From: Citrifermentans bremense
Lineage (GTDB): Bacteria; Desulfobacterota; Desulfuromonadia; Geobacterales; Geobacteraceae
NCBI RefSeq assembly: GCF_014218275.1
Contig: NZ_AP023213.1
Location: 1,714,001-1,778,000, forward strand
Length of the DNA stretch: 64,000 bases
Reading direction: 5' to 3'
Shown: positions 47,813 through 48,472 of the stretch, piece after piece
How positions within the stretch are numbered: the first letter of the stretch is position 1
Layout of the letters: each line of letters begins with the position of its first letter
The notes under the pieces: model-generated
Told to the model about the DNA's origin: nothing
The model's database searches: none
Seen by the model: only the letters and a program-made list of their open reading frames with translations
Position numbers and translations under genes: made by a program

Positions 47813-48259
47813 ATGACACAATACCTGGTGAAATGCGGCTCCTGCGGGGCCTCGAACCGTATCCCTGCCGAAAAGGAGGGCGTCGCCGGGCAGTGCGGCA
47901 ACTGTCGCGCCAAGCTCCCCGTGCTTTACCTTCATCCCCAGCAGTTGAACGACGACAGCTTCGACGCCTTCATCTCAGGGTACAACGGCCCCGTGCTCGC
48001 CGAGTTCTGGGCTCCCTGGTGACCCCACTGCGTCTCATTCGCACCGGCGGTGCGAAAGGTGGCTGAACTTCTGGCGGGAGAGGCGGCGGTGGTGCAGATC
48101 AACAGCGACGAGAGCCCGCGGCTCTCCGCGCGTTTCATGGTCCGGGGGATTCCCGTGGTTCACCTGCTGCGCAAAGGCTCCTCCGTCGGCCAGCTTCAGG
48201 GCGCGCAGAGCGCGGAGTCGGTGGTTAGCTGGTTCAGGCGCAGCGCAAGGGACAGATAG
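47813..48259 (+). CDS. Thioredoxin-2-like selenoprotein (UGA-encoded Sec70)
   Basis: Thiol-disulfide oxidoreductase with the TrxC plan: an N-terminal zinc ribbon (CGSCGASNRIP, CGNCRAKLP), then a thioredoxin domain. The active site reads FWAPW-[UGA]-PHC-VSFAP; the UGA at 48020-48022 falls exactly on the first Cys of WCGPC, and the second Cys (Cys73) is kept. The frame continues 79 codons to TAG 48257 with DxSPRLSARFMVRGIPVV, including the cis-Pro. Total 148 residues with Sec70. A hairpin directly after the UGA fits a bacterial SECIS. The ATG has GGAGGG six bases upstream. Read as two genes, neither half would be a functional thioredoxin. The selA, selB, selC and selD genes must be elsewhere. 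Confidence 0.88.
48020..48062 (+). promoter_or_regulatory. Candidate bacterial SECIS element
   Basis: Begins at the UGA codon. A perfect 8-bp stem TTCGCACC (48038-48045) / GGTGCGAA (48049-48056) has a GGC loop about 24 bases after the UGA, with a possible lower stem CCAC (48025-48028) / GTGG (48059-48062). Distance and coding overlap match SECIS hairpins read by SelB; the loop starts with G as in known elements, but sequence conservation is low so this is a structural inference. Confidence 0.65.
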
Positions 48260-48325: not shown

Positions 48326-48472
48326 ATGACCAGAGATCAGTTGCAGATTCTGGAGAACCAGTTGGTGGCGAACTGTCAATACAAGGGGGTTCAGCCCACT
48401 GTGCACAAACTTCTGGAAAGCCTGTATGAGGGAAAGAGCCTGGATCAGATACTTGAAGAGCTGTTGGAATAA
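48326..48472 (+). CDS. Small helical protein, unknown function
   Basis: 48 residues, mostly helical (QLQILENQLVANCQYKGVQPTVHKLLESLYEG), ending in EELLE. ATG 48326 has GGAGGGAG immediately upstream. Acidic, no membrane segment. It may be a short regulator or chaperone; nothing more can be said. Confidence 0.55.
   Translation: MTRDQLQILENQLVANCQYKGVQPTVHKLLESLYEGKSLDQILEELLE

Follow-up and report, generated by a model that had tools for sequence, protein, structure and literature searches.

How should an in-frame UGA codon be read when it interrupts the gene of a thioredoxin-like protein at the very position where the first catalytic cysteine (Cys) belongs? The question is raised by a short gene at positions 47813 to 48259 of a 64,000-nucleotide (nt) stretch of the Citrifermentans bremense genome (NZ_AP023213.1, positions 1,714,001 to 1,778,000 of the forward strand; hereafter, the window). 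An earlier reading made from the sequence alone had proposed a selenocysteine (Sec)-containing, thioredoxin 2-like protein with a WUPHC active site. On comparison of the orthologs, of the RNA hairpin that follows the UGA and of the Sec machinery of the host, we are highly confident that this gene encodes a genuine Sec-thioredoxin, and that call of the sequence-only reading appears right overall, short of mass spectrometry. Standard codon tables would end the protein at codon 69. The 148-codon frame starts with the ATG at 47813, stops with the TAG at 48257–48259 and contains only one in-frame TGA, at 48020–48022 (residue 70); it stays open past this codon as had been claimed, for 78 sense codons rather than 79. 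The features discussed below are as follows, with the evidence for each in parentheses.

47813..48259, forward strand: probable Sec-thioredoxin gene, 148 amino acids, ATG to TAG (open reading frame [ORF]; Pfam Thioredoxin match; ratio of nonsynonymous to synonymous substitution rates [dN/dS])
47834..47905, forward strand: CxxC...CxxC zinc-ribbon cysteines, residues 8, 11, 28 and 31 (conserved in orthologs)
48020..48022, forward strand: UGA as predicted Sec, residue 70, position 1 of W-U-P-H-C (TGA/Cys ortholog column)
48023..48031, forward strand: P-H-C, residues 71–73, the middle dipeptide and resolving Cys (ortholog conservation)
48038..48056, forward strand: putative Sec insertion sequence (SECIS) hairpin, 8-bp stem, 3-nt loop starting with G (comparative pairing)
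48152..48154, forward strand: predicted cis-Pro codon, P114 within GIPV (invariant in alignment)

The codon found at the Sec column carries the argument. Within the family of the host, a match at E ≤ 1e-20 is obtained in 38 of 48 genomes, with TGA at all 40 places, and the closest named relative is C. bremense R1 (86% identity in this protein). Across the order, matches at E ≤ 1e-15 come from 102 of 141 genomes, many of which contribute an ordinary thioredoxin only; the ortholog itself is present in 84 of the 141, with TGA as the sole codon at this column in 72 and a Cys codon alone in 12. Removal of 13 identical copies from 98 loci leaves 85 distinct genes, which carry TGA (73), TGC (8) or TGT (4) at this column. 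An in-frame UGA is therefore found where homologs carry Cys, the pattern that defines a selenoprotein, and the UGA at 48020–48022 replaces the first catalytic Cys as the sequence-only reading had it. The grounds on which that reading could have failed do not materialize: UGA or Cys occupies the column in 85/85 distinct genes, TGA recurs independently in other genomes, and selB and selC are present (see below). Chance or sequencing error as the source of the TGA is ruled out by its occurrence at the same column in 73 distinct orthologous genes.

The motif around this residue is [W/T/S][U/C]PHC in 84 of the 85 distinct genes and CTHC in the other, with the preceding Trp replaced by Thr in 15 genes and by Ser in one. 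WUPHC and TUPHC paralogs occur together in four genomes (G024, L031/L057; G039, L085/L107; G051, L110/L095; G060, L058/L035), and the Thr form therefore represents a second subfamily, which may have a different role. A wider search of 395 genomes of the phylum gave matches in 108, and the motif was examined in 24 loci outside the order, drawn from 102 matching genomes. These loci harbor WCGPC (16), WCGAC (3), WCAPC (1), WCGHC (1), HCGVC (1) or WUGHC (2); since PHC is found in none of the 24, the Pro-His pair marks this lineage, in its Sec and Cys forms alike. The two WUGHC zinc-ribbon thioredoxins (L143, match 1501–1911; L144, match 1501–1914) come from two genomes of one other family of the phylum and are followed by hairpins of −15.6 and −18.0 kcal/mol. 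They share with the window gene the TGA at the same column, the zinc ribbon and a strong hairpin after it, but have GH for PH and lie outside the order; they probably represent an independent gain of Sec.

The window hairpin, TTCGCACC-GGC-GGTGCGAA at 48038–48056, has its stem start 15 nt and its apical loop 23 nt from the UGA, in keeping with the earlier description of a hairpin about 24 bases downstream. It is near-fixed as TTCGCACC-GGY-GGTGCGAA across the 73 Sec genes. Of the distinct Sec genes, 72 of 73 preserve all six inner pairs, versus 2 of 12 Cys genes; three further Cys genes keep 5/6, which leaves five Cys genes not cleanly decayed (three with five and two with six inner pairs). The loop starts with G in 73/73 Sec genes, and a G in a small apical loop is the bacterial SECIS rule as given in PMC1088965; a hairpin soon 3′ of the UGA, with a small G-starting loop and conserved pairing, is what these genes present. 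The mean folding energy is −13.2 kcal/mol in Sec genes and −8.0 kcal/mol in Cys genes, and the mean z score against synonymous recoding is −1.0 and +0.5, respectively (p = 3e-6 for energy and 5e-6 for z, relatedness being ignored in both). The codons under the hairpin are frozen in the Sec genes as GCA (71/73), CCG (73/73) and GTG (73/73), far above the use of these codons for the same amino acids elsewhere in these genes (21%, 48% and 40%), and are thus constrained beyond the needs of the protein. In a pairing-covariation test on 64 distinct hairpin sequences with 500 shuffles, 98.4% of cells are paired versus a shuffled mean of 96.8, a level reached by 0/500 shuffles; changes on both sides are found at three of the eight pairs (reached by 4/500), and the number of additional pair types is within the usual range (92/500). 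One two-sided change, C-G to U-A in four genes, brings with it an Arg-to-Gln substitution, which suggests, because the RNA change comes at this cost, that the hairpin constrains the protein sequence. We conclude that the hairpin probably functions as a bacterial SECIS element, a conclusion that draws on ortholog comparison, not on folding alone.

The host is equipped for selenoprotein synthesis. Its complete genome (4.46 Mb) harbors selA (601 bits), selB (395 bits), selD (362 bits) and selC, the tRNA-Sec (74.9 bits, anticodon TCA, which reads as tRNA-Sec(UCA)), and so SelA, SelB, SelD and tRNA-Sec, the set that marks a bacterial selenoprotein genome, are all found. The host selD frame (G000:C1:3892030-3892947, L147) itself has an in-frame TGA, and SelD is probably a selenoprotein in its own right. 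SelB would deliver Sec-tRNA(UCA) to the UGA via the hairpin just 3′ of it. A reading of the UGA as some other residue, e.g., Trp via a suppressor tRNA, is given practically no weight: an open frame through the UGA is by itself silent on the inserted residue, but Cys stands at this catalytic position in 12/12 non-UGA genes, the SECIS is weaker where Cys replaces UGA, and the whole Sec machinery is in the genome.

Selection on the two parts of the gene bears on a simpler possibility, namely that the UGA is a true stop, the product a 69-residue zinc-ribbon protein and the remainder a dead remnant. The 69-codon frame does terminate at the UGA, and some copies may be decaying: the ortholog L037 (1501–1926), from a genome that is 78% complete, has one TAA and a second TGA beyond the Sec codon and may be a decaying copy or the result of poor assembly, and L074 has an early stop. 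However, dN/dS is 0.08–0.26 (<0.27) before the UGA and 0.036–0.285 (<0.29) after it, each in 8/8 ortholog pairs, and a ratio this low on both sides argues that the downstream part is translated. This purifying selection past the UGA refutes the true stop; with the frame kept in 73 distinct genes, Cys at the column in 12 relatives and the SECIS conserved, we consider it extremely improbable.

Four observations weigh against a Sec-thioredoxin of the kind and role proposed here. The window hairpin folded by itself is unremarkable (z = −0.58; 52/200 shuffles fold equally well); Rfam at gathering thresholds gives no match in the window; at the threshold applied, no ortholog turns up in 57 of the order's 141 genomes, and the protein is therefore not essential to the lineage; and the order peroxiredoxin, Sec-thioredoxin and nuo genes, which is seen in a sister clade (see below), does not occur around the gene in the window.

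What is new and of most use here is a succession of Sec-to-Cys changes accompanied by SECIS decay. In a quick maximum-likelihood tree of the 85 proteins, built with the active-site residue masked and with weak support at 38 of its 82 inner branches, three Cys changes are nested inside Sec rows, two of them forced by well-supported branches; a single origin of all Cys rows is rejected (approximately unbiased [AU] test, p = 9e-9). Ten of the Cys rows group as a single clade (support 93), and their hairpins are for the most part degraded. L084 adjoins L078 (support 86), the codon being TGT in the former and TGA in the latter, with the L084 hairpin intact. In L084 (3958-4392, reverse strand) the Cys version of the gene and the SECIS-like hairpin are both intact. 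The second such case, L117 (4073-4447, forward strand), is a Cys version with an intact SECIS-like hairpin within the Thr-type group; its aligned frame has no start codon and its zinc ribbon lacks the beginning, and it may be a copy damaged at its 5′ end. L084 and L117 have the look of genes that changed from Sec to Cys recently and retain a fossil SECIS, and two recent reversals plus one older one is the simplest reading of the tree. Alternatively, Cys would be ancestral and Sec would have arisen several times, with no reversals at all. The zinc-ribbon thioredoxins of the outgroup are mostly Cys proteins (22 of 24 examined loci), and the tree, made quickly, has many poorly supported forks; against this, the Cys rows are nested in Sec rows with three changes in total, and intact SECIS elements without a UGA in L084 and L117 are hard to explain unless the UGA came first. 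We therefore regard a Cys ancestor as improbable.

Cys forms show no clear link to loss of the Sec machinery by selA counts (10/12 Cys genomes versus 67/72 Sec genomes), and since selA is kept in 10 of the 12, the change did not generally follow such loss. In some cases a missing selA match probably reflects an assembly gap, because G034 lacks one despite having selB and a UGA gene. Table 1 of a 2006 survey gives zero Sec-to-Cys events among seven thioredoxin selenoproteins (PMC1794560), and a 2026 review describes prokaryotic Sec-to-Cys changes as rare, with formate dehydrogenase and SelD as the main documented cases (PMC13188914); a literature search for fossil SECIS elements in bacteria found none, the titles it turned up being concerned with ciliates, viral infection and insects. 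With a single small soluble protein available in 73 Sec and 12 Cys versions, and an RNA signal visibly decaying after Sec loss, dated thioredoxin reversals would allow direct comparison of Sec and Cys in natural pairs, e.g., L078/L084. If true, the series from Sec through fresh Cys with a fossil SECIS to old Cys would be a natural one for testing the benefit of selenium to a thioredoxin.

As to the kind of thioredoxin, the window protein matches Pfam Thioredoxin over residues 43–141 (81.9 bits) and Zn_ribbon_Thio2 with 24.5 bits, under the 27.1 cut-off. The four zinc-ribbon Cys, predicted from sequence to bind zinc, are invariant in 26/26 alignment rows, and 82 of the 85 distinct genes show the CxxC...CxxC pattern, the remaining three being truncated or having masked letters; P114 is likewise invariant in 26/26 rows, and its cis geometry would follow from the thioredoxin fold. 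A thioredoxin fold, a CxxC-type site and a cis-Pro, the hallmarks of the superfamily, are thus all present, and the alignment, the structure model and the structure matches bear out the earlier description of fold, zinc-ribbon cysteines and cis-Pro. TrxC (thioredoxin 2; NF008229) is the best NCBIfam match and shares the N-terminal zinc ribbon, with all four cysteines of its CxxC...CxxC, and the thioredoxin fold, across both of which PDB entries 2ppt and 3p2a align. The score of 98.5 bits, however, lies under the 125-bit equivalog cut-off, as do those of two Cys relatives (101.4 and 98.3 bits), so that "TrxC-like" stands as a description where "TrxC" does not. WCGPC, found in 16 of the 24 loci outside the order, is the typical TrxC active site; the window protein has WUPHC instead. 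None of the NCBIfam selenoprotein models scores above its own cut-off on the window protein. Review entries for Sec-thioredoxins in general place Sec first in the CxxC of a Pfam Thioredoxin domain, as here, but give UxxC only and do not name a zinc ribbon (PMC9312934, PMC13188914).

The product would be a cytosolic zinc-ribbon selenoprotein of thioredoxin fold, in which Sec70 would act as nucleophile on a disulfide or sulfenate of the substrate and Cys73 would resolve the mixed selenosulfide, as in the thioredoxin mechanism. The Pro-His pair would make the site less reducing than that of a usual thioredoxin. Because Pro-His on Archaeoglobus fulgidus Trx3 raised the potential from −287 to −221 mV, i.e., by 66 mV, in the work reported in PMC4395160, the window protein is by analogy expected to be a mildly less reducing thioredoxin. 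This shift, together with the resemblance of UPHC to the CPHC of DsbA, also favors a Sec protein whose job is cytosolic thiol oxidation or isomerization rather than reduction. DsbA, however, is periplasmic with a helical insertion domain, and the structure model of the window protein is a plain thioredoxin domain of ~105 residues plus the zinc ribbon, without such an insertion; no signal peptide is apparent at the N terminus on inspection by eye, the protein being presumably cytosolic, and the genome harbors a thioredoxin reductase (389 bits). CPHC on a thioredoxin scaffold is, moreover, placed nearer to thioredoxin than to DsbA in PMC4395160. A DsbA-like oxidase role is thus less likely, indeed rather unlikely. 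The likeliest job would be fast reduction of a peroxiredoxin or similar thiol enzyme, with recharging by thioredoxin reductase (TrxB), which we put forward tentatively, at somewhat short of even chances.

Gene order in the sister clade hints at this peroxiredoxin-reducing role. Only individually checked genes were used here, as neighborhood clustering is noisy (overlapping antisense frames cluster too), and flanks of ≥3 kb on both sides are available for 29 of 85 rows, so that synteny beyond the sister clade is poorly sampled, with flanks often of only 1.5 kb. Among the 17 sister-clade rows, nuoA is next after the Sec-thioredoxin gene in 15 (Pfam, 109 bits; one of the two exceptions is a contig edge), and a fused nuoBCD lies downstream in 14 (1558 bits, cut-off 1156). 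An AhpC/TSA peroxiredoxin (131 bits) is found upstream on the same strand in eight, ending within ~80 nt of the thioredoxin gene in four and ~460–500 nt upstream in the other four; the NCBIfam models closest to it, PrxQ and thioredoxin-dependent thiol peroxidase, each score under their cut-off. Beyond the sister clade nuo is found only in L116, and no peroxiredoxin is present in the flanks covered (often 1.5 kb). It is quite possible, though we put it somewhat short of even chances, that the Pro-His site is tuned lineage-wide for a dedicated cytosolic peroxide/sulfenate relay beside complex I and that Sec was lost to Cys at least two to three times, mostly in genomes still making selenoproteins, leaving fossil SECIS elements behind.

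Thioredoxin selenoproteins were reported for Geobacter metallireducens, G. sulfurreducens and G. uraniumreducens in 2006 (PMC1794560, Table 3), and Table 1 of a 2007 paper gives GSU3446 as a thioredoxin containing TGA (PMC1914089). By number GSU3446 adjoins complex I, because GSU3429–GSU3445 are given as the complex I cluster (PMC5585712). GSU3446 and the window gene are both in-frame TGA thioredoxins of the same bacterial order; the window's own copy is not beside nuo, but the sister-clade genes adjoin complex I as GSU3446 does, which suggests, from synteny and inference rather than direct alignment, that the GSU3446 family has its Citrifermentans/Geomonas-side ortholog in the window gene. 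A Sec-thioredoxin as such is thus already known in Geobacter-like bacteria and UPHC is the rule of the family, so "unusual," the word of the sequence-only reading, was an overstatement for a site conserved across the lineage and, in Geobacter, in print since 2006–2007. A literature search pairing selenoprotein with Geomonas or Citrifermentans names found none. New here are the extent of the family, the proposed Sec-to-Cys reversals and the order peroxiredoxin, Sec-thioredoxin and nuo of the sister clade, not of the window. Finally, the neighbors of the gene in the window are a divergent polysaccharide deacetylase, a 48-residue ORF and an outer-membrane barrel gene; the ORF, which is without a Pfam match, lies at 48326–48472 between the Sec-thioredoxin gene and the barrel gene.
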